From: a virus
IMG/VR virus record: IMGVR_UViG_3300025000_001035
Coordinates: 1 to 24,000 of that record
DNA: 24,000 bases
Direction: 5' to 3' (one strand)
The stretch's first letter is position 1. Every line of letters starts with the position of its first letter. Positions 2,409-23,423 of the stretch are shown piece by piece. The position numbers and the translations under genes were made by a program. The notes beneath the pieces are model-generated. The model ran no database searches. It worked only from the letters and a program-made list of their open reading frames with translations, and was not told where the DNA came from.

Positions 2409-3398
2409 CTACCAAGAATAGACATACACTGCACCATCGCCGCCTAGCCCACCATCGCCGCCAACAGATGTTCCGCCTCCGCCTCCGCCCCCACCACCTC
2501 CATTTGCTCCACCTGCTCCGCCAACGCCGCCCGTGCCGGAATCCTGTGCTCCGCCACCTCCACCGCCCGTTCCGCCCTTTGTAGAATCCCCTGCTGTTCC
2601 AGCGCCGCCAGCGCCGCCGTTTACAGCGCCACCACTGCCACCACCACCACTCGTTATCATAGAGTTTGCTCTGCCGCCAGCCTTACCTGCATCTTCAACG
2701 TTATCTGTATCTATTGGGCCACCGCCACCACCACCTGCACCGCCGAACACACTACTAGCGCCAGTAAGCCCCTCAGCAACGTTGCCGCCTCCACCACCTG
2801 CCCCGCCGAAAGCAGCAGCCTTACCCGCAGATCCCGGAGTTGTGCCGCCCCCACCAAATCCCTCTCCTGTTTCGTTGGCTGTGTTAGCAGGCAATCCACC
2901 TAGTTGGGCAGACCCAGCGCCAACATTTCCACCACCCCCTATTCCACCGCCAGTGCCCCCACTCCGACTATTGCCCACGGAACCGCCAGCGCCACCACCT
3001 CCACCATAGGCGTAAAGGCGAGTTCCAAAGTCGGTAGCTCCGCCCTGATCTCCGTTAGACCCGTTTCCACTACTACCGCCAGCGCCTAGCGCCCCTCCAG
3101 CGCCAATAGTAACCGCTTCTGTTGCGGCAAGGTCGGAGGCCCTGTACGTACACTTGTTACAGGCTCCGCCGCCGCCGCCTGTGCCAGGGGGCCTACCTGT
3201 GCCAGTTGCACCACCAACGCCGCCGCCACCGCCCCCGCCCGCACCAAACAGCACAACCTCAACCACTGTAGCCCCCGCAGGCTTTGTCCATGTGCCAGAA
3301 GCGGCGAAGACCTGGACATCAACGGGAGGGTTAGTGACCTGAACAGTCATCTGCCCATCCGCTTGAACTATTCTTACATCCATCTGCGGTGTTGGCAT
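2409..3398 (-). CDS. Glycine-rich tail fibre or virion surface protein
   Basis: 329 residues from ATG at 3398 with TAGGAG upstream. Residues 1-45 are a short beta-type region. The motif GTWTKPAGATVVEVVLFGAG then opens a glycine-rich domain of the kind widespread in phage fibres and adhesins (pattern W-x-x-P-x-G, then V-x-V-x-G-x-G-G-G). The following roughly 270 residues are more than half glycine, in runs of up to nine, with a CNKC pair near residue 82. The protein ends VYVYSW, a typical closing beta strand of this domain. Such domains can fold as polyglycine-II helix bundles at fibre tips in some phages; whether this one does is inference. The opposite strand shows long proline-rich open frames, which are only its complement. 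Confidence 0.82.
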   Translation of the reverse strand: MPTPQMDVRIVQADGQMTVQVTNPPVDVQVFAASGTWTKPAGATVVEVVLFGAGGGGGGGVGGATGTGRPPGTGGGGGACNKCTYRASDLAATEAVTIGAGGALGAGGSSGNGSNGDQGGATDFGTRLYAYGGGGGAGGSVGNSRSGGTGGGIGGGGNVGAGSAQLGGLPANTANETGEGFGGGGTTPGSAGKAAAFGGAGGGGGNVAEGLTGASSVFGGAGGGGGGPIDTDNVEDAGKAGGRANSMITSGGGGSGGAVNGGAGGAGTAGDSTKGGTGGGGGGAQDSGTGGVGGAGGANGGGGGGGGGGTSVGGDGGLGGDGAVYVYSW

Positions 3399-3407
3399 TG
3401 GTTTCTC

Positions 3408-3785
3408 CTACTTCGCCCCTTGGTAGTACGTCTTGTTGTTGGTGCTTTCACGTCTTGCAGCGGCATAGCTGCGGAACTCCCTTATGGCCTTCCCCACTTC
3501 CTGCCGCTCCGCAACACTTGCAGGGGCATGTTTACCCACCTTGCGCTGCCGCTTCTCCTCCAATTCTATCAGCCAGGTTTCCAGGGCAGAAGCGGCCATG
3601 TCCTCTATCTGCGCCTTGCTCATGGAGTCATCGGCTAGTATCCGTACCTCACGTGTCTTGCCGTACGTGGCAGAGTGAAAACGGAAGCTATGGGACACAA
3701 CGGCACTGCCAGTCTCTACATTACGCCCCAGGAGACTAGGCGTACCCTGAGTAACTCCTTTAGGCAACCACAGTTTGGCTACCAA
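3408..3785 (-). CDS. Hypothetical protein, 125 aa, TTG start
   Basis: The frame runs from TTG at 3785, with GAGGGAG at good spacing just upstream. No ATG is available near the N-terminus, so a TTG start is the best reading. It overlaps the end of the LicD-like gene by 26 bases. The N-terminal half is of mixed beta type. The C-terminal half is strongly helical and charged (MSKAQIEDMAASALETWLIE then many Lys, Arg, Glu and Ala), suggesting a short coiled coil. No family is recognised. Its position between the sugar cassette and the glycine-rich fibre gene makes either a small virion protein or a cassette accessory possible. Confidence 0.55.
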   Translation of the reverse strand: MVAKLWLPKGVTQGTPSLLGRNVETGSAVVSHSFRFHSATYGKTREVRILADDSMSKAQIEDMAASALETWLIELEEKRQRKVGKHAPASVAERQEVGKAIREFRSYAAARRESTNNKTYYQGAK

Positions 3786-4290
3786 CTTTCACTCCCTCTT
3801 TGCCCATCGCAGCGTTGCGGTTCTCTTTATTCCACCATTCGCCGTAGGCCAGTTGCAAATACGCCTGGACAGGGTGCGGCACACGGTACAGTTCGTCCTT
3901 GTACGGCACGGCGTCAAAGAAACGCGTAAGGTTCTCCTCGTCGTCGGTGAAGGTGTAGAACACGTCCACCAGGATGCCGCCGTCTTTGATGTTGGGAACG
4001 TCGGGGTCGTAGTAGATATGCCTGTTCTTTGTCCCGTCCACGTTCTCGCACCATCGTCCAAGGTTGAAGCCTGCTTCATACAACGCAGGCCACAGCTTCT
4101 CCAACTCCTCTGGCGTGGCCTTTACCGCCAGGTCTATGTCGTCGTCATGGGTTATCCACCGTCCGTCTCGGTACATGCCCAGGGCAGAGCCAGCAAACAA
4201 GCACCAGTCCAACCCAAGGTCGTCTGCCACTCCTTTGAAGCGCAGGAGCGCTTTGTCTGCATGGTCTTTGTTCATGGGTATATGTTTCAT
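3760..4290 (-). CDS. LicD-like nucleotidyltransferase-fold protein
   Basis: 176 residues from ATG at 4290, two bases after the radical SAM stop. The core motif is near residues 33-54: AGSALGMYRDGRWITHDDDIDLAV. It combines the Gly-Ser-Ala-Leu-Gly lead with the D-D-D-I-D metal-binding acids that mark the LicD/fukutin branch of the nucleotidyltransferase superfamily. LicD proteins transfer phosphocholine or similar phospho-substituents to surface glycans, and relatives act on other phosphosugars. At 176 residues it is shorter than most LicD proteins (about 260 or more) and lacks their long C-terminal half, so it may be a minimal or related nucleotidyltransferase. It closes the sugar cassette, which fits a role in adding a phospho-group to a glycan. 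The substrate is unknown. Confidence 0.75.
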   Translation of the reverse strand: MKHIPMNKDHADKALLRFKGVADDLGLDWCLFAGSALGMYRDGRWITHDDDIDLAVKATPEELEKLWPALYEAGFNLGRWCENVDGTKNRHIYYDPDVPNIKDGGILVDVFYTFTDDEENLTRFFDAVPYKDELYRVPHPVQAYLQLAYGEWWNKENRNAAMGKEGVKVGSQTVVA

Positions 4291-4292
4291 GG

Positions 4293-5420
4293 CTATATGA
4301 AGTTGAAGTTGACTGTTGGTTCAGTTGCCGCTTGGATTATCTCTAGCCCTTTTACTTCCTTTTCAAGGGCACGGTTTATCATATCTTGTCTACAAAGGGG
4401 GCCACAAGAGCGTTGTGCGTTGAACTCCTCAGAGACCAGATAGTCCATGACTTCCCAGTATCGCTCGGAGTGGAAGATGTCTTTGAACCGTTGCTCGGTA
4501 ATGTTGCCGATGTGCAACTTGGCGTAGCGGTCATTGAACTTATCGCCGCATGGAGCCACCAGTCCGCTACCGCTTATCTGCAACATGAATCTTGGTCCAC
4601 GGCATCGCTGATATGTCCTGGTCATGCCTTCTAGTATCTTGTTCCACATGACAATGACCTGATACTCAGGCGTGGCAAGTTTCTGTGCCTCTTGCAGCGT
4701 GGGTATCATTCCCTTGACCGCTCCGTAGTTGACACCCAAGTTGCCATCCTCATCATCCGCCACGTGCTTTACGGTGCAGGCTTCCACGCCAAGTTCTTTG
4801 CCTAGCCTTACGAATGGAATCACCTGGTCAACATCCTGTGGTAAGCAGACCATCTGAAGCACCAATTGAACAGGCAGATTGTTCCGCTTCTTGATAGCCA
4901 CCATGTTGCGGATATTCGAGAGCACCTGTTGGAAGAACTTGGGCTGAACGCCCATGATTTCACAATAACGTTGCTCAGTACCAGCAGGACAGTTGATGCG
5001 GATGTAAGACAGGGCGGGTAGCGATACCTCCTGTCTGTCAGGTGTGAGCGTGTGACAGTTACTTCCTGCTGCCACGTCCATGCCAAGGGCTTTGCACTTT
5101 TGCACAAATGGAACCCAGTGTCGGGATAGCAGACTCTCGCCGTCTGAAAGCAGGCTGATAGCTCTAACCCCTATCTCAGCGGCGTCATCCAGGAAATCGG
5201 ATAGGATGGGCCAAGTAAGCTCGTGGCGGTCATTTTCCTGGAGCATGGCGTAACAAAAGCTACAAGCTGCGTCACACTTGCGGGTCAACGCCATATCTAT
5301 GGTTACGGGAGCCAGTCGCTCTCCATGCCGCCATTGCTCTACACGGTCAATGTGGTAGGGCAGTTTGTGGCCGTCCATAATGCGGAGGCTGGTGGTAGGT
5401 CGCTCAATTACGATGACCAT
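4293..5420 (-). CDS. Radical SAM enzyme with SPASM/twitch-like auxiliary cysteines
   Basis: 375 residues, with ATG at 5420 overlapping the preceding stop as TAATG. The radical SAM motif is C49-D-A-A-C53-S-F-C56 (CxxxCxxC), which binds the [4Fe-4S] cluster that cleaves S-adenosylmethionine. LSDGES at 91-96 occupies the GGE-type SAM-binding position. The C-terminal third has C273, C291, C339 and C343, followed in part by KLHIGNI, arranged like a SPASM or twitch auxiliary cluster. Members of that group modify peptides or sugars (sactipeptide maturases, anaerobic sulfatase maturases, BtrN-type dehydrogenases). The substrate cannot be read from sequence. Its place between thiamine-dependent and LicD-like genes suggests sugar or small-molecule chemistry, but a peptide or virion-protein substrate is equally open. 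Confidence 0.85.
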   Translation of the reverse strand: MVIVIERPTTSLRIMDGHKLPYHIDRVEQWRHGERLAPVTIDMALTRKCDAACSFCYAMLQENDRHELTWPILSDFLDDAAEIGVRAISLLSDGESLLSRHWVPFVQKCKALGMDVAAGSNCHTLTPDRQEVSLPALSYIRINCPAGTEQRYCEIMGVQPKFFQQVLSNIRNMVAIKKRNNLPVQLVLQMVCLPQDVDQVIPFVRLGKELGVEACTVKHVADDEDGNLGVNYGAVKGMIPTLQEAQKLATPEYQVIVMWNKILEGMTRTYQRCRGPRFMLQISGSGLVAPCGDKFNDRYAKLHIGNITEQRFKDIFHSERYWEVMDYLVSEEFNAQRSCGPLCRQDMINRALEKEVKGLEIIQAATEPTVNFNFI

Positions 5421-5674
5421 TAGACCTTCGCGCCCCTTAGCTTCACCCGTAGCTTTTCCATGTCGCCTCTTGGCTGTAGAAAGACCTGCACATCTGGGTC
5501 TATCTCCCGATGCAGCCGCTTCTCCAACTCCAAGAGCATGTGCCCCCGTTCTGCTGTTGGCATGTCCTGTTTCATCCGCAAGGTGAGTTTATTCCCATTC
5601 CATGAGACAAACTCGACTTCCTTTGGAAAGTCCACACTAGAAAGCACTTGTAGGTACTGCGATGTCGCTTGCAT
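5420..5674 (-). CDS. Hypothetical 84-aa protein coupled to the E1 beta and radical SAM genes
   Basis: 84 residues from ATG at 5674. GGAGGT lies 8 bases upstream, the best Shine-Dalgarno in this stretch. The gene overlaps the end of E1 beta by 38 bases in another frame and its TAA overlaps the radical SAM ATG. The protein looks like a small alpha/beta domain: FVSWNGNKLTLRMK as a strand pair, TAERGHMLLELEKRLHREI as an amphipathic helix, then DPDVQVFLQPRGDMEKLRVK ending in a basic tail. I do not recognise the family. The tight coupling suggests a subunit or accessory of the thiamine enzyme or of the radical SAM protein. That is inference from position only. Confidence 0.65.
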   Translation of the reverse strand: MQATSQYLQVLSSVDFPKEVEFVSWNGNKLTLRMKQDMPTAERGHMLLELEKRLHREIDPDVQVFLQPRGDMEKLRVKLRGAKV

Positions 5675-6545
5675 GAGATTCCACCTCCGCTGGCGGCGTT
5701 TTCCCTAGCAGCTGGCATACTCTGACTACAATATCCCTGGCAGAAGGATACCACATCCGTTCCATTGGTACAGAGGCGCCCTGGGGGATGAAGGGCGGGG
5801 ATACGATGCCTGGGCTAGGTCTATGAACAACGGTGTCCACAAGTAAGTATGGGTGATCAGTAGACGGAAGTTCTACTACATGCTCCCATACATGGAGATT
5901 GGGCCGTACACCCATGCCCTCTAGCACCTTCACTGCCTCATATCCCTCTAGCACCATGTCGCCAAGGGCGAAGATGGTGATGTCGGGCAGAGGGTAGTAT
6001 TTCTGGTCAGACATTCCCAGCAGGTCGTGGTCATAGAGGCGGCGTGGTTCAAAGATGATGGTGGGGGTGCCGCTCTCCAGAGCCGATTTCAGCCATCTGT
6101 GATATCTGCCTGGCAACACTGGCATGAACACATCCAGCCCTGGTATCTGCGCCAGAAGGTGATGCCAACTCTGGCTATGGACTGGCCCCTGGCCCCATCC
6201 ACGGCCCACTACACACCGCATGATAAACGGCAGCGGCTCCCCGTGCAGGAAATTGAACTTCGCCGCCGTGTTGATAAGGTGCTCAAAGCTGAACAGAGAG
6301 AAGTCTGCCCGGGTATGTACCAGGATGGGCTTCCAACCTTCCATCGCCAGACCCACACATGCCCCAGTCATCATCGTCTCGGATATGGGCATCTCTAAGA
6401 CACGCTTGGGGAAGAGCCGTGCCGCTTCGGAGACTGTCCCAAAGACGCCATGTGGTGTGGTGACGTTCTGCCCAATGATAACCACCCGTTCATCGTTGCG
6501 GAGAGCGTCCACCATCGCCTGAGAGATAGCGTTCTTATACAGCAA
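5637..6545 (-). CDS. Thiamine-diphosphate enzyme, E1 beta / transketolase C-terminal type
   Basis: I place the start at TTG 6545, preceded by AGAGGTGG, giving about 302 residues that begin LLYKNAISQAM, where E1 beta homologues begin. The frame is open up to an ATG at 6620, but those extra 25 residues overlap E1 alpha and look non-homologous. Family landmarks are VLEMPISETMMTGACVG, whose Glu corresponds to the one that activates the thiamine aminopyrimidine ring, DFSLFSFEHLINTAAK, GWGQGPVHSQS and PGLDVFMP. These define the pyrimidine-binding domain of pyruvate/acetoin dehydrogenase E1 beta and split transketolases. The C-terminal domain (PLPDITIFALGDMVLEG) is present. No lipoyl E2 or E3 gene is in the window, so a transketolase-like or carboligase reaction on a sugar is an alternative to dehydrogenation. 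Confidence 0.82.
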   Translation of the reverse strand: MLYKNAISQAMVDALRNDERVVIIGQNVTTPHGVFGTVSEAARLFPKRVLEMPISETMMTGACVGLAMEGWKPILVHTRADFSLFSFEHLINTAAKFNFLHGEPLPFIMRCVVGRGWGQGPVHSQSWHHLLAQIPGLDVFMPVLPGRYHRWLKSALESGTPTIIFEPRRLYDHDLLGMSDQKYYPLPDITIFALGDMVLEGYEAVKVLEGMGVRPNLHVWEHVVELPSTDHPYLLVDTVVHRPSPGIVSPPFIPQGASVPMERMWYPSARDIVVRVCQLLGKTPPAEVESHASDIAVPTSAF

Positions 6546-7476
6546 CTTCCACCTCTGCCCAAGGTGCTGATTCAGCCTTCTGGAACGCTTCCGACACGGC
6601 AAACTCCACTGCCCATTCAATGTCGTCTCGCTGTGTAGCTGGCAGCAGTGCGCCTAATATCTCCAAGGGGTCGTATTCTGGCTTGGCCATCTCGATAATT
6701 GGCCCCACGTGCTCTGCCCATCGGTGTGTCCTGATTTCCAGGAAGGCGGGCAGTTCATGGAGCATGGTCTGAACTGTTTTGTAGATAACCTCAACATCCT
6801 TATCGGTCACTCGATTGGATTGCATGAAAAGAAGGACTCGCTGCCAGATGTTTGAACTCCCTGGCTGACGTTGCTCTACGGGCGTCTGTGTAGCCAGGCG
6901 GTTATTCTCGCAGACATAGAGGAGCCTGAGCTTATGGGTGGCGGCGAAGTTGAATGATTCCCATACCTGCCCTGATTCCATCGCTGCGTCACCAAAGAAC
7001 ACCGCCGTTACTCTATCGCTGCCTTCTAGCTTCGCCGCCAAAGCAGCCCCCGTTGCCAGGCTGACGCCATCTCCGACTATAGGGAAGGCTCCCATGAAAC
7101 CTGCCGCCTTGTCCCGCAGATGCATGGAACCGCCCCTACCACCACAGCAGCCCGTGCCCTTGCCGTAGAGTTCGGCTATCATGGCGTCCAGGTTGCCGCC
7201 CTTGGCAAGATAGGCGGCATGGCATCTGTGACTGGCAAACACATGGGCGTCGGCAAGCAAAGCCATCATCACGCCAACGGCGCAACTCTCCTGGCCCAGG
7301 CTCAGATGTGTTGGAGTCCGCATGGGATTATAAGATGCGCCATACCCACCATAGACCTGTGCAATCTTCAAGTCCACCTGTCGGCACAGGTACATCTTCT
7401 CATAGGCTGTGGCAGCGTCAAAGGTCATTGTGGTATACTGCTCCTGAGTTGGTGGATAGCTGCTCTGTATTATCAC
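6535..7476 (-). CDS. Thiamine-diphosphate enzyme, E1 alpha / transketolase N-terminal type
   Basis: 313 residues from GTG at 7476. That start forms a GTGA overlap with the upstream micro-ORF, but its ribosome site is poor. ATG at 7428, with CAGGAG 12 bases upstream, is a plausible alternative. Landmarks are THLSLGQESCAVG (about 56-68), SHRCHAAYLAKG, YGKGTGCCGGRGGSMHL (104-120) and the diphosphate/Mg2+ motif G162-D-A-A-M-E-S-G followed by N191-N192. These match the alpha subunit of pyruvate, acetoin and branched-chain keto acid dehydrogenases. It pairs with the overlapping beta gene as a heterotetramer. With a GmhA-like isomerase and HldE-like enzyme just upstream, it could supply or extend a sugar phosphate. 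The usual dehydrogenase partners are absent. The family is clear and the substrate is inferred. Confidence 0.85.
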   Translation of the reverse strand: MIIQSSYPPTQEQYTTMTFDAATAYEKMYLCRQVDLKIAQVYGGYGASYNPMRTPTHLSLGQESCAVGVMMALLADAHVFASHRCHAAYLAKGGNLDAMIAELYGKGTGCCGGRGGSMHLRDKAAGFMGAFPIVGDGVSLATGAALAAKLEGSDRVTAVFFGDAAMESGQVWESFNFAATHKLRLLYVCENNRLATQTPVEQRQPGSSNIWQRVLLFMQSNRVTDKDVEVIYKTVQTMLHELPAFLEIRTHRWAEHVGPIIEMAKPEYDPLEILGALLPATQRDDIEWAVEFAVSEAFQKAESAPWAEVEVAV

Positions 7477-7556
7477 CCTTTGCTAAGGTTAAGTGGTACA
7501 GGGTTGCCGTACAAATACTCGGCGAAGGAACACAAGCCAACTCTTCCCCTTTTCAT
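7473..7556 (-). CDS. Candidate 27-codon micro-ORF between isomerase and E1 alpha
   Basis: A 27-codon frame exactly fills the only gap inside the sugar cassette. It starts at ATG 7556, overlapping the isomerase stop as ATGA, and its TGA at 7475-7473 overlaps the GTG of E1 alpha. The peptide begins MKRGRVGLCSFAEYLYGNP. There is no clear ribosome binding site, so translation would depend on coupling. It may encode a real small peptide, or merely serve to bring ribosomes to the weak GTG start. Only its junctions support it. Confidence 0.35.
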   Translation of the reverse strand: MKRGRVGLCSFAEYLYGNPVPLNLSKG

Positions 7557-8086
7557 TTCAAAGCCTCAGCTATCATGTGCAGTATACAAGACATCGCATC
7601 CTCCACGGGGCCATACTCGGCCTGTGGCAAGACCACCGCACTCTGACACATTGGCAGAGCTAGGCCACCCCCAAAGCCCAATATCCCAATGTTTGTGCCT
7701 TTCCCTACACCGAGACATTCCAGGATGTTGTCCGAGTGCCCAGAACCGCTTATGACAATAAGGGCGTCGCTGCCACGTTGAAGTAGTGTCAGTAGGCGGG
7801 CTGCGCTGCCTTGGTAGCCATAGTCGTTGCTCTGCGCTGTCAGGTAGGCAGAGTCGGCCATAAGGTCAATGGCCTTTATGCCCACATCACGGAGATGGAG
7901 TACAAGGTGTTGGGCATTAGCCTGGGAGCCGCCGTTGCCCACCACAAAGACCGTGCTGCCCCTATCTCGCATGACCCGCAGCAGTTCTATCAGGACAACT
8001 ACTTCCGTCGCCCTGATATTCTCAATGGCTTCAATAACTCGCCCCTTGTATAGGGCTATCTGGTCTGCTACTGTCACCACAGCCAT
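7553..8086 (-). CDS. SIS-domain sugar-phosphate isomerase, GmhA-like
   Basis: 177 residues, close to GmhA length (about 190). Its ATG overlaps the upstream stop as TAATG. The SIS fold is marked by VVGNGGSQANAQHLV at 48-62, the sugar-phosphate loop VISGSGHSDNIL at 111-122 and a C-terminal EYGPVEDAMSCILH. GmhA converts sedoheptulose 7-phosphate to manno-heptose 7-phosphate, the first committed step of ADP- or GDP-heptose synthesis. Its zinc ligands are a His-x3-Glu pair and a Gln/Glu-x7-His pair. Here the first pair reads H60-x3-H64, so the usual catalytic Glu seems replaced by His, while E162 and H170 are kept. This may change the substrate or mechanism. The next upstream gene is the HldE-like enzyme of the same pathway. 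Confidence 0.85.
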   Translation of the reverse strand: MAVVTVADQIALYKGRVIEAIENIRATEVVVLIELLRVMRDRGSTVFVVGNGGSQANAQHLVLHLRDVGIKAIDLMADSAYLTAQSNDYGYQGSAARLLTLLQRGSDALIVISGSGHSDNILECLGVGKGTNIGILGFGGGLALPMCQSAVVLPQAEYGPVEDAMSCILHMIAEALK

Positions 8087-9441
8087 TACACAAGTCTCCT
8101 GATGAACTTCCGTAAGACCTTGGGGTCAATGGGCTTCTCGTTGCCAAAAGTAGCACACTGCATGGCGGCGGCGCAACTGCCCACAAAGGCCGCTACCTCT
8201 CGATCTACCCCCAGGCATGTCAACGGTGCCGCCAGGGAAAAGAGGGCATCACCAGCGCCTACTCTGTCAACCAATTGCGTCACGAAGGATGGGACGTCCA
8301 TGCCAAAGTTGCAGCCTTTTGAGCCGTTGGTCAGCAGCACATTGCTTGCGCTGTATATATCCCAGCCGTTAGCTAGGGCCAGCCGCTGTTCAGGACCATC
8401 CATGCAAATAAAGTCCAGCCGCTTCCATTTGGTCGCAAGGTTCAGCCCATAGTTGGCAGAGTTGGTCTGGCAGTTCACGGCAAGGAACCTGGCCTGCTTT
8501 TGCAGTCCGTCCCGTAACTCAGGCGTGAACAGGCCATGCCCGTAGTCCATCGCTATGACCATGCTGTACTCGGCGGCATGGGCCAGAAGGTCAAGCCCTT
8601 CCAACTTGATAGATAGCGTGTCTGGCAATGTTTGTATCGAGAACAGTTTGCGGAACTCCTGTTCCTCTACAAACCGCTCTTTTACAATCGGCTCACGCTG
8701 GCATACCAGCCGCACGTTCTTGGCAAACCCTGCCAGGTGGTTCTGGATAGCTACAGAACCGCCATGATAAGCCTCGGTTCGCAGCTTCTTGACAGACAGA
8801 TGGTGCTCTCTAGGACTCTTGGTGAGCGTGTTCACTATCACATATCTATCGGTAATGCTCTCCCCCACCACCAGGATGCTCAGATTCGCAATGGAGTCCA
8901 CCGATCCCAGAATCTCGTCTGCGCTGTGGCGCCGCCTGAATCCTTCCAACCACCGCCATGTCTCCTCTGAGTAGCTGTGAAATGTGCCGTTGAGGTCTTC
9001 CTTGGGAACTGGAAAGTATGGCGTGAAGGCCAACCGCCCCCCTACTGACGCCAGGGCATCCTTCTCTTCCTGTATGATACCCTGCTCGTCATAGTCGCCA
9101 CCCTTGACGAATAGGTCTGGACGAACTGCCTCAATAACCTCTGCGGCAGTGGGTGCATTACTCGGCACAACGTAGTCCACCATGTCGAGAGCCGCTAACT
9201 GCTCCATGCGTTGCCATTGGGAAAACACGGGCTTTCCTGGCCCCTTGTTCACATATTCATCCGCGGTGACGCTCACCACAAGCACATCGCCCTTCGCCTT
9301 GGCTTCTCTCAGATAGCCGATATGCCCTGGATGCAGCACGTCGAAGCAGCCGTGGGCCAGCACAACAGGCTTGCCGCCCCGACAGCCATTCAACTCCGCA
9401 ACGTCGGCAAGAACTTTGTGCCGTCCGGGTGCAACTGTCAT
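8086..9441 (-). CDS. Bifunctional nucleotidyltransferase-PfkB kinase, HldE-like with swapped domains
   Basis: 451 residues, with ATG at 9441 overlapping the preceding stop as ATGA. Residues 25-145 are a cytidylyltransferase-type domain with AHGCFDVLHPGHIGYL (HxGH at 37-40) and FVKGGDY at 111-117, as in the adenylyltransferase part of HldE and in glycerol-3-phosphate cytidylyltransferases. Residues 185-451 are a ribokinase/PfkB domain with VVGESITDRYV, DYGHG at 299-303 and the anion-hole and base motif DRVGAGDALFS at 392-402 (Asp398). HldE phosphorylates heptose 7-phosphate at O1 and then adds AMP. In the E. coli enzyme the kinase is N-terminal, so the order here is reversed. With the GmhA-like gene next to it, activation of a heptose or similar sugar is the best reading. 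Confidence 0.85.
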   Translation of the reverse strand: MTVAPGRHKVLADVAELNGCRGGKPVVLAHGCFDVLHPGHIGYLREAKAKGDVLVVSVTADEYVNKGPGKPVFSQWQRMEQLAALDMVDYVVPSNAPTAAEVIEAVRPDLFVKGGDYDEQGIIQEEKDALASVGGRLAFTPYFPVPKEDLNGTFHSYSEETWRWLEGFRRRHSADEILGSVDSIANLSILVVGESITDRYVIVNTLTKSPREHHLSVKKLRTEAYHGGSVAIQNHLAGFAKNVRLVCQREPIVKERFVEEQEFRKLFSIQTLPDTLSIKLEGLDLLAHAAEYSMVIAMDYGHGLFTPELRDGLQKQARFLAVNCQTNSANYGLNLATKWKRLDFICMDGPEQRLALANGWDIYSASNVLLTNGSKGCNFGMDVPSFVTQLVDRVGAGDALFSLAAPLTCLGVDREVAAFVGSCAAAMQCATFGNEKPIDPKVLRKFIRRLV

Positions 9442-11054
9442 TTCGTCCCCGTCAAGATTGCGAACTTGCTCTGTATCACCACGTCGTCTTGTGTGATGGT
9501 AGCTTTATACGCCTTCCGCACCGCATCGGGCATCGTCCTGTGTATCTCCATGATGCGGTCTGTGCTCTCCTTGGGTAGCCCGCTGTTATCTAGCCAGTTG
9601 CGGATGCTAAACCCCTCCATGATATATTCAGCAGCCTTGATGTACTTGAAGCCCGCTCTGACCATAAGGCGGTTCATAAACGGCACTGTCATGGTCATAC
9701 GGTCTTCCTTCAACTTGAACATTTCGGTATACCATTGCTGCGCCATCCGACTAATTGGCACACCCTCGGAGAAGATGAACTTGCCGCCAGGGACTAGCAC
9801 CCGCAGGCATTCCCGCATGGCCTTGTCCGCATCGCCCTGCCCTGTCAGTCCATGCACTACCATCCTGGCAAACACCTTGTCGAACCGTCCCCTGGGGTAA
9901 GGAATAGCCCTGATGTCCCCCTCTACGAACTCCGTGTTTACAGCCGTGCGTCCATTCACCCGTGCAAGCATGGCGGGCGATACATCCAGGCCGACTACCT
10001 GGTGCACCACCGGAGCAACTTCATGGGCAATGTAACCAGGGCCAGTGCCCGCATCCAGCACATAGTCATCAGACACAACCCCAGCAGCATCCATGAGTGC
10101 CGCCAGATAACCTTTGTCCTGGGGCCATTGGAGTCTGGGATAGCTCATGGCTCTGCCTTCCCAATGCTCTCGAAGAGTTGCCATCTCGACCATCAATGAT
10201 GGGTTATTCATCTCATCTGGCCTGATGGTTTGTGGTTTCATGGTTATCATCTCGTATTTGCACCCCTCGGCTTTACAAAGATAGAGTCCCATATCTCGTG
10301 ACTGATGGCTCAGATAAACAGGGCCAATACAGAATGTTCCATTGTTATTATGGGCACGAAAAGGAATCTGGTAGAAGTCTTTGAAGCCCCGTGCCAACTC
10401 CAGGATTTTGACTGGCGTGTCCACATCCATGTGCGGGTAGCAACCCTGCTGCTGCCAGAAGTAGTGGTCTTCGCCCTCAGTACCAAAGCCTCTCCATACA
10501 GGAGGGGCAATACGCTTCAAAGCTTCAACTTTGAACAGAATGCAACAATGGGCAGCCCAGGTCAGACGCAACAGTCCTTCCCGTGTTGGCCTGTCATGCG
10601 GCCCATAGTTCATGTCTTCGACAGGTGGGAAGTCAGGGAAGGTGAGTCGTGGCAGGATGATGTCTTGCCCGTGGCGGAGCAATCTTTCGAGTGTGTTAGG
10701 GGTGAAACAGGCGTCGTTCTCAATCAGGAAGAGGTAGTCATAGCCACCGTCTATAGCGGCCTGGACTCCCCAGTTACGCATCTGGGTATGGCCCCGCAGC
10801 CTGCTTCGGGGGACAGTGGATGCAGCCTCTTCCTCAGTGATGAAACCTGGAATGAATACAGGAACAGCCGATGGCCCGTAGGCAGCGCACATCGCCAGAG
10901 TGTCATCTAGCGTGGTGCGGCCCTCAGTGCCATAGCTCATGGGCCGAGGCCCCACGATAGCCACAAGCACTGTGGGCAAGAGTGCCCCTGTAGGCGCAGG
11001 GGGCACAACGCCGACAGGAACACTCTTGAGGTCATATTCAAGCAAAGTAGCCAT
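9438..11054 (-). CDS. Glycosyltransferase-methyltransferase fusion protein
   Basis: 538 residues from ATG at 11054, with AAGGTAG upstream. Residues 1-250 look like a GT-A family glycosyltransferase: a TVLVAIVGPRP strand, GGYDYLFLIENDACFTP at 103-119 with an acidic metal-binding motif in place of DxD, and FGTEGEDHYFW at 190-200, as in family 2-like transferases. A C260/C265 pair lies in the linker. Residues 310-538 are a class I SAM methyltransferase with motif I VLDAGTGPG at 332-340, acidic motif VVGLDVSPAML and a FVEGDIRAIPYP segment near 390, close to UbiE-type enzymes. A single chain could add a sugar and methylate it, or methylate a neighbouring glycan. It heads the sugar cassette and directly follows the capsid genes. 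Confidence 0.8.
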   Translation of the reverse strand: MATLLEYDLKSVPVGVVPPAPTGALLPTVLVAIVGPRPMSYGTEGRTTLDDTLAMCAAYGPSAVPVFIPGFITEEEAASTVPRSRLRGHTQMRNWGVQAAIDGGYDYLFLIENDACFTPNTLERLLRHGQDIILPRLTFPDFPPVEDMNYGPHDRPTREGLLRLTWAAHCCILFKVEALKRIAPPVWRGFGTEGEDHYFWQQQGCYPHMDVDTPVKILELARGFKDFYQIPFRAHNNNGTFCIGPVYLSHQSRDMGLYLCKAEGCKYEMITMKPQTIRPDEMNNPSLMVEMATLREHWEGRAMSYPRLQWPQDKGYLAALMDAAGVVSDDYVLDAGTGPGYIAHEVAPVVHQVVGLDVSPAMLARVNGRTAVNTEFVEGDIRAIPYPRGRFDKVFARMVVHGLTGQGDADKAMRECLRVLVPGGKFIFSEGVPISRMAQQWYTEMFKLKEDRMTMTVPFMNRLMVRAGFKYIKAAEYIMEGFSIRNWLDNSGLPKESTDRIMEIHRTMPDAVRKAYKATITQDDVVIQSKFAILTGTK

Positions 11055-20978: not shown

Positions 20979-23423
20979 TTATCTCCGTGTCACCACCCTG
21001 GACCGCTGTCCGCCTGCTCTGATGATGCGTCGGGCATACCCTCCGTGGCGTTGCATCACAAACCTCTGATTGTCCCCGTCCACCAGCTCAGGCGTGAAGT
21101 CGGAAAGGATATATCTTTCTGCGTCGAGGAGGTGGAAAGTACTTTTGTCCTCAATGTCGTCCGTCGGCTCGTATTTATCGTTCAAAGCATACGAGTAAGA
21201 CAGCTTTTCGTCAAGATACTTCTGCAAGTCATTGAACACAAACAGCTTATTGAGCTTGTGAAGGCCATACACCCTATCTATGCCAGTCGCCACGTCGTGG
21301 ATTTTGGGTTCCTGGATGAACCAGCCGTTGGCCCTGTACGCCTCCCGTATCTCCTCCTCTTGGTGGCTGCCGCCAGCCCGTTTCATCACGTTCAAGCCCT
21401 CGGTCAGCCGTTTGAACTCCTGCACATGCTCCCTGGTAGACCGTCCAGGCCCAGGTTTGTACTCATCATAGGCGTAGAAGTATCCCGTGGCGGGGTCCTG
21501 GGCATAGAACATGGCTGCGGGGTTCGCTGTCCCGAAGTCGTGGCCGACGTAGTGGGGCCAGGCTGCGGGAATGGCGAACCGCTTTATCTTGCAGGCGGCC
21601 TCATCGAAGGCGTCGTAGACCAGTCCAGCGGGCCGCTCGAACTTCCCCTCGTAGAACATGCGGAACTTCCATCCAGGCATGGTCTTCTTGGCCCGCTCGA
21701 ACTCCTCCGGGGGGAAAGCGGGATTGGCCGTCGAGGGCCAGGAGATGACTTCAATGCCACTATCTGGCTCTTTTGCTCTGTCAAAAAGCTCAGTCTTCAG
21801 CCAGCCCAACAGGTAGGGCGTCGTGGGGTACAGTATCCGCCCCTGGTGGATGCTGAGGCGTCGCAGGAGAGCCTCTCGTGCCTCACGGCGGAACTGGCGT
21901 TGCCCCGCTTCATCGGCCACAGCAGCCTTCGCCGTCGCCGATTCAAGGCTTTCGGGGTTGGTGGCCGTGCCGAATATCACCCGTGTCTTGCCTACTGTGA
22001 ACTCAAACACCTTATCAGAGTCACGATAGCGGCCTTTGTGCTGCATGTGCTGAAACACGTCCAAGAACTCAGGTAAGAGCTTCAGTTGCATGAGGGGGTA
22101 CGTGGCCGACACCATGAGATAGTCGCCCTCGCCCCGTTCCGCTATCTCCCTGTCCATCCAGTCCACGCCTACTGAGGTGTTATGTGTTGGCACATAACCA
22201 TAGCCAGCCAAATACATGCTGGAAGGACTGCTCACCTGAATACACTTCACTGGCATAGATGCAATGGGGACGACGGCAGTTATAAATCTGCGGCGCACAT
22301 CTGGGCGATTGACCTTCGCCTGTCTTACCAGTTTTCTGGCAATTGTAAAAACAGGCAACGTGGTGCAAAAGTCAAAAACGGTGGTGTCTTTAGATGGAAT
22401 CCCATTACAAAGTGGCGTTTTGATTCGACTACGCCACTTGATGCCAAGCGAGGAGAGCAAGACGCCAAAGCCGTAAGCTAACAAAGGTTTCACGCTCGAC
22501 CACTCACACCGTCCATTTGGAGCGCAATATCCATCGGTGTCCATCAAGCCTCTTAGCAAGGCCATGCGTTGGTCGTAGGAACCCCTGAGATAGCTGTCTG
22601 GGATATGTTTGTTGTTCAACACCCCAAGGGTACGAAGCCGCCCTTGCAGCGTGTTTGCCCGACTTGCAAGGCTTCCGCTTGGATGTCCTCCGCCCACTTG
22701 ATAAGTCTGAGCTTTGCCTGTGTTGGGGGATGGTCGGGCATGGAGACTGTAACCCTCTATAGTGATGCCAGCCAATACCTCCTCGTCCATAGTTGTTATA
22801 TTGGAACTTGCAGATGTGCCGTCTCCAAGCCAGCATCCTAAAGTGTAGGGCTGGATTGGATAGTCTTTTGCTCGATAAGTAACAGGCTGGCAGAGGGCTA
22901 TAGAGTGATTCGTTGACTCATTGAGCGCCCCTTCTCTTGAAATAAGGGTGCGGCGAATGCCATTTGTGGTAACAACACTAGACCGAGGATGCCTGCGCTT
23001 TTGCAGGTATGCCCAGCCAGGCACAGGGATTTTGACTTGTCTCGTCTCATTTTTCCTCTGTGTGGCAGTCTGGGTCTTCCAACAATGGTCAGCATCTGCA
23101 ATGAGCCAGGCCCCATCATCAAACTCTACCCTGAAACATCTCCGTCCATACTGGATTTCGGTGGCAAATATCACTTGGCACTCTCTGCCACCATCGTCAA
23201 AGACCACGTCGCCAGGATGCAGTGATTCCATGCTAACAAACCCGTTAGGGGTTGGAATCGGCGTATCTATGGCTAAGGCTTTTCCACTTTGAACTCCGCT
23301 AAGCGCAAGTATCTCCCGTGCCTTGGACATCATCACGGCTATCTGGCCGTAGTGCATGTTGTGACGCATCTCCCCGTTCGGAAGAAGCTCACGGTAAGGG
23401 CGAACAGCAGGAACGGTGGTCAT
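20979..23423 (-). CDS. terL: Terminase large subunit, interrupted by an intein
   Basis: The full reading frame is 814 residues: 447 of terminase extein plus a 367-residue intein at 49-415. The ATPase part has Walker A SGVQSGK/TS split by the intein between K48 and T416, Walker B KAAVADEAG and the coupling motif YPTTPY. The nuclease domain has VGHDFGTANPAAM, whose Asp is a candidate metal ligand of the RNase H-like fold, and a later HDVATGIDRVYGL. It packages DNA by ATP-driven translocation through the portal encoded next. ATG at 23423 overlaps the preceding stop as ATGA. Because the intein breaks the P-loop, the ATPase can work only after protein splicing. No separate small terminase is certain in the window. 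Confidence 0.92.
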   Translation of the reverse strand: MTTVPAVRPYRELLPNGEMRHNMHYGQIAVMMSKAREILALSGVQSGKALAIDTPIPTPNGFVSMESLHPGDVVFDDGGRECQVIFATEIQYGRRCFRVEFDDGAWLIADADHCWKTQTATQRKNETRQVKIPVPGWAYLQKRRHPRSSVVTTNGIRRTLISREGALNESTNHSIALCQPVTYRAKDYPIQPYTLGCWLGDGTSASSNITTMDEEVLAGITIEGYSLHARPSPNTGKAQTYQVGGGHPSGSLASRANTLQGRLRTLGVLNNKHIPDSYLRGSYDQRMALLRGLMDTDGYCAPNGRCEWSSVKPLLAYGFGVLLSSLGIKWRSRIKTPLCNGIPSKDTTVFDFCTTLPVFTIARKLVRQAKVNRPDVRRRFITAVVPIASMPVKCIQVSSPSSMYLAGYGYVPTHNTSVGVDWMDREIAERGEGDYLMVSATYPLMQLKLLPEFLDVFQHMQHKGRYRDSDKVFEFTVGKTRVIFGTATNPESLESATAKAAVADEAGQRQFRREAREALLRRLSIHQGRILYPTTPYLLGWLKTELFDRAKEPDSGIEVISWPSTANPAFPPEEFERAKKTMPGWKFRMFYEGKFERPAGLVYDAFDEAACKIKRFAIPAAWPHYVGHDFGTANPAAMFYAQDPATGYFYAYDEYKPGPGRSTREHVQEFKRLTEGLNVMKRAGGSHQEEEIREAYRANGWFIQEPKIHDVATGIDRVYGLHKLNKLFVFNDLQKYLDEKLSYSYALNDKYEPTDDIEDKSTFHLLDAERYILSDFTPELVDGDNQRFVMQRHGGYARRIIRAGGQRSRVVTRR
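22179..23279 (-). mobile_element. Class 3-type intein with LAGLIDADG endonuclease, in the TerL P-loop
   Basis: In-frame insertion of 367 residues, Ala49 to Asn415 of the TerL frame, starting ALAIDTPIPTPNG and ending GYVPTHN before Thr416. The first residue is Ala, not the Cys/Ser of ordinary inteins. The residues of the class 3 WCT set are present: Trp115 in ADHCW (block B, after His113), Cys394 in PVKCIQV (block F) and Thr413 in PTHN (block G). Cys394 would be the initiating nucleophile. An endonuclease of dodecapeptide type is inserted, with LGCWLGDGT (Asp201) and LRGLMDTDG (Asp297), both acids intact, so homing is plausible. The segment looks more AT-rich than its flanks (not computed). 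Confidence 0.9.

Follow-up and report, generated by a model that had tools for sequence, protein, structure and literature searches.

A predicted mobile intein of class 3, encoding a LAGLIDADG endonuclease, in Walker A of a phage terminase large subunit

Results and Discussion

A terminase large subunit (TerL) gene in the window, the whole 24,000-nucleotide stretch of viral DNA that we analyzed (IMG/VR record IMGVR_UViG_3300025000_001035, positions 1 to 24,000), very probably carries a mobile intein of class 3 that encodes a LAGLIDADG homing endonuclease and is inserted between the Walker A lysine and threonine of the phage protein. Judging from sequence and a structural model, the splicing domain is of class 3 and the middle of the element is a PI-SceI-type LAGLIDADG endonuclease. 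In itself this TerL gene is unremarkable, belonging to a known group, and many phages have the same type of element at the same site.

The interrupted terminase gene

The minus-strand reading frame at 20979-23423 encodes a TerL of 814 residues that is interrupted by the intein and forms a single open frame from end to end. The N-extein (48 residues; 23280..23423, minus strand) ends in translation with the Walker A sequence GVQSGK (23280-23297); the uninterrupted homologue L078 reads GVQSGKTSVGVDWM. The C-extein (399 residues plus stop; 20979..22178, minus strand) begins with Thr+1 and Ser, and matches the PHROG terminase large subunit families (E 4.4e-23) as well as the NCBIfam phage_term_2 model, the latter with an E of 6.8e-11 that is under the model's curated cut-off, while the Pfam terminase families gave no match to it. 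The protein thus combines homology to TerL with a Walker A motif that reads GVQSGKTS after splicing and a Walker B motif, VADEAG, whose Asp (21912-21914, minus strand) is nearly invariant in alignment A2.

A scan of genome contigs recovered two intein-free TerLs, both from one Anaerolineae metagenome-assembled genome; at ~43% identity these proteins are too distant for Anaerolineae to be named as the host. Elsewhere in the window, a minus-strand block of carbohydrate- or metabolic-type genes (3760-11054) adjoins the capsid genes and encodes dehydrogenase E1 alpha-like, transketolase pyrimidine-domain, heptose-kinase/adenylyltransferase-like, SIS-domain, radical SAM/SPASM and methyltransferase products; the block resembles a phage-borne pathway for surface sugars.

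Intein anatomy and class

The intein spans 367 residues from Ala1 to Asn367 (22179..23279, minus strand, as are all positions given below for its residues), corresponding to precursor residues 49-415, and was delimited by alignment and an AlphaFold2 model, with both junctions confirmed by the empty site of L078. It lies between Lys48 and Thr416 of the precursor, splitting GVQSGK/TS, and the initial annotation, which had placed the insertion at 22179-23279 inside this motif, was correct to the base when compared with the translation and the L078 empty site. That annotation had also pointed to an initial Ala and to Trp115, Cys394 and Thr413; these residues, numbered there by the precursor, are present, correspond to W67, C346 and T365 in intein numbering, and match the Trp-Cys-Thr (WCT) set of class 3 DnaB inteins with solved structures. 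No further intein was found in the window, where a profile of the family matches the TerL frame only (E 1e-113, with the query itself included in the profile).

The residues expected of a class 3 intein are all in place, as identified by alignment to class 3 inteins and to the family: Ala1 (23277..23279), which leaves position 1 without a nucleophile; His65 at block B:10 (23085..23087); Trp67 at B:12 (23079..23081), the W of WCT; Cys346 at F:4 (22242..22244), the predicted initiating nucleophile; Thr365 at G:5 (22185..22187), the T of WCT; and His366 followed by the cyclizing Asn367 at G:7 (22179..22181). The next residue, Thr+1 (22176..22178), is both the Walker A threonine and the predicted second branch-point nucleophile. 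In class 3 inteins Cys F:4 initiates splicing, its mutation blocks splicing, and a Thr and a His lie beside it in the active site (PMC6195587, PMC7664689, PMC5222942).

When the PDB was searched with phmmer, the intein matched the Mycobacterium class 3 DnaB-1 inteins best, with E values of 3e-23 (6rix) and 1.2e-22 (6bs8). Blocks A/B and F/G align to both without gaps, and H65, W67, the Cys and the Thr are in register; in M. smegmatis DnaBi1 the WCT residues are W67/C118/T137 (PMC6195587). No characterized class 3 intein resembles that of the window closely in sequence except within the conserved blocks, and the NCBIfam and Pfam splicing models gave no match to the window intein, LAGLIDADG_3 being the only hit, so its class was settled by alignment and structure.

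An AlphaFold2 model of the intein built from 38 homologues (mean pLDDT 89.3, pTM 0.89) superimposes on 6bs8_C with a Z of 20.4 and an rmsd of 1.2 Å over 125/125 residues at 42% identity, which identifies a Hint fold, and it matches the PI-SceI structure 1jva_B over its whole length (Z 27.9 over 334 residues). With the block alignment, these two matches assign the splicing domain to class 3 and the middle to a two-motif LAGLIDADG endonuclease. The latter domain covers approximately intein residues 136-327 (22299..22874), scores above the cut-off of Pfam LAGLIDADG_3 and, taken alone, structurally matches I-Tsp061I. It has two motifs within a PI-SceI-like fold, each with one acid of catalytic type, Asp153 (22821-22823) and Asp249 (22533-22535); the presence of both acids had been noted before, and the family shows almost no variation at either position. 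A chance match is not a credible explanation, given the E of 3e-23 to 6rix, the LAGLIDADG_3 score above cut-off and the relatives encoded by 75 viral loci.

Prevalence of the family

The homologue set comprises 57 distinct full-length sequences, that of the window included. W, C, T, H and both Asp residues are conserved across the family alignment, with the full WCT set in 51 of the 57. Insertions into the P-loop were counted by Lys(-1) together with Thr/Ser(+1), since a strict GxxxxGK pattern undercounts them because the Walker A motif of TerL is often deviant; by this measure 53/57 homologues occupy the site. Their C-exteins fall in several kinds of TerL families (Pfam, PHROGs), and annotated terminase genes interrupted by such an intein occur in deposited phages that include ECD7, 489E54-1, B23, Traaww1, SOVA965, ACF1, RcKickapoo and YungMoney. 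Among class 3-type inteins, that of Gordonia phage YungMoney (L103) has the C-terminus TRN, not THN, and two others (L038, L041) have Gly at G:5, not Thr.

Inteins in the TerL P-loop, and TerL inteins of class 3, have been described previously (PMC5050341), and a survey counted 1701 class 3 inteins in nr by 2020, with LAGLIDADG motifs in 82.5% (PMC7891396). The description of class 3 inteins as uncommon in the initial annotation was thus overstated, and the Walker A motif of phage TerL is a usual address for inteins (PMC5050341). When 38 class 3 inteins (alignment A1) were searched with Pfam, Intein_splicing found 1/38, Hint_2 2/38 and LAGLIDADG_3 36/38. The low yield of Intein_splicing suggests that phage class 3 inteins are likely under-annotated, above all those without an endonuclease, and these models would easily miss class 3 mini-inteins.

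A separate clade of four distinct TerL inteins, related to the present family, has Ser at block F:4 in place of Cys: L055 (identical to L053 and L054), L045/L109, L110 and L111. These are 56-62% identical to L055, are inserted at a PPRHGK/T Walker A motif and keep Trp B:12, Thr G:5, His B:10 and the His-Asn end; position 1 is Gln or Leu in three of the four, which consequently have no Cys at either of the usual places where splicing starts. The Ser F:4 inteins may start from an oxyester, or may be inactive. The large survey picked class 3 inteins by Cys F:4 (PMC7891396) and therefore could not have contained this clade. A second intein lies in the C-extein of one of these terminases (L045, 2165-4408), where Pfam Intein_splicing matches at 3.2e-14.

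Empty and occupied sites in related terminases

Comparison with relatives, which had been proposed as a check, showed related TerLs to be empty exactly at the named junction. The L078 protein is 89% identical over the C-extein and uninterrupted at the same codon boundary (LALSGVQSGKTSVGVDWM). In DNA, similarity between the window and L078 ends at one edge of the intein and restarts at the other, and of the 20 bases on each side of the site, 14 are identical on the left and 19 on the right. When further empty alleles were sought with a degenerate search, L078 alone came up, and the site is also empty in L079, L081, L082 and most other relatives. These empty sites fit a homing site at the junction.

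The same codons hold a class 3 intein in L006/L005, from an uncultured virus, and the same Walker A site in another member of this TerL family, L083 (405-3038), holds a class 1 intein with Cys1, a TxxH block B and a Pfam Intein_splicing match (E 1e-21). One site in one TerL family therefore occurs in three states, empty, filled by a class 3 intein and filled by a class 1 intein, and this supports the view that this Walker A codon pair is a repeated intein target. Downstream in L083, a Mu-like portal gene (3256-4245) has a class 3-type intein that begins after NPEGR and is ended by the contig edge.

In the intein tree, the window and L006 are sisters (support 100/100), while in the extein tree the window groups with the empty L078, L079 and L081 (support 99/99). 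The tree paths between the window and L006 are approximately equal, at 1.30 for inteins and 1.38 for exteins; no recent homing event is demonstrated by these values, and since the paths are alike, the trees allow both an old common origin followed by losses and independent gains.

Splicing, homing and other explanations

The predicted splicing route would begin with Cys346, flanked by His65 and Thr365, attacking the Lys(-1)-Ala1 bond to give a branched thioester at block F. The N-extein would then be transferred to Thr+1, after which cyclization of Asn367 and an acyl shift would join Lys to Thr and restore GVQSGKTS. Either within the precursor or after excision of the intein, the endonuclease would cut the site in TerL alleles that lack the intein, and repair of the cut allele would copy the intein in; the empty site of L078 is a candidate substrate. 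Because the P-loop is split by the intein, the unspliced motor is expected to be inactive, with no ATPase activity before splicing, and it is reasonable to infer that packaging would stay off until then. In line with this, a RadA P-loop intein is reported to disrupt ATPase function (as cited in PMC6195587), and higher-order complexes of TerL have been argued to be unlikely while an intein is present (PMC5050341).

A mistaken class 3 assignment, with the element really belonging to class 1 or class 2, has a close to negligible probability, even with a class 1 intein at the same site in the relative L083. Class 1 inteins have Cys, Ser or Thr at position 1, and the Ala found here excludes class 1 chemistry; moreover, the WCT set (Trp B:12, Cys F:4, Thr G:5) is complete, and the best PDB matches are class 3 inteins. 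The finding that would have spoken against class 3, namely W, C or T at non-equivalent positions, was looked for by both sequence and structure, and the positions are equivalent; the class 3 interpretation of the initial annotation is supported. It is very improbable that the intein has decayed, or is an inactive remnant, and has lost the ability to splice, leaving TerL a dead gene. There is a precedent in Arth_1007, a class 3 phage-type intein reported as a pseudogene (PMC3196547). Here, however, the 814-residue frame is open, and W, C, T, H, the His-Asn end, Thr+1 and both LAGLIDADG Asp residues are intact. The same gene also occurs in three other contigs at a nucleotide identity of at least 99.9%, and TerL is essential to tailed phages.

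A mobile class 3 intein thus remains the favored explanation, to which a redox gate may be considered as an addition, not an alternative, although we regard it as rather unlikely. Oxidation would here form a Cys48-Cys346 disulfide that blocks splicing. In the 6bs8 alignment, Cys48 (23136..23138) falls at the redox-trap position, Cys48, of M. smegmatis DnaBi1, where a disulfide with the catalytic Cys, detected by mass spectrometry, blocks splicing under oxidation (PMC6195587). The same study terms Cys48 non-conserved, in contrast to its presence in 31/57 homologues of the present family. The residue could, however, be kept for packing or catalysis, the other 26/57 have a different residue at position 48, and the five phage terminase inteins tried so far spliced readily (PMC5050341). 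The conservation of Cys48 is accordingly a lead toward regulation only. If the gate were real, the intein would be a redox switch on genome packaging, which would wait for a reducing cytoplasm; oxidation would keep the TerL precursor unspliced, and motor assembly would hinge on the host's redox state.

Comparison with known systems

The intein shares Ala1, Cys48, His65, Trp67, the block F Cys, the block G Thr, the His-Asn end and, at 1.2 Å, the Hint fold with the Mycobacterium DnaB class 3 inteins (Msm DnaBi1, 6bs8; Mch DnaB1, 6rix), and insertion into a P-loop with Msm DnaBi1 (PMC6195587). The DnaB inteins differ in being mini-inteins without an endonuclease and in residing in DnaB, whereas that of the window has a LAGLIDADG domain and resides in TerL; the +1 residue is Ser in Msm DnaBi1 and Thr in the window. 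The mycobacteriophage TerL1-a/b P-loop inteins (PMC5050341) are likewise inserted in the Walker A motif of TerL.

Insertion between Lys and Thr, the full WCT set and the LAGLIDADG Asp pair are all shared with E. coli phage ECD7, Vibrio phage 489E54-1, Synechococcus phage B23 and Mycobacterium phage Traaww1, although the inteins of these four are ~32-33% identical to that of the window and their TerL C-exteins only ~12-13% in alignment. PI-SceI, the Sce VMA intein, is similar in fold over its whole length, with Hint and LAGLIDADG domains, but uses class 1 chemistry and has yeast VMA1 as its host gene. The L006/L005 element combines a full WCT set and an intein identity of 45% with the same site in the same TerL family (C-extein identity 52%), and differs in that intein-free relatives lie between its exteins and those of the window.
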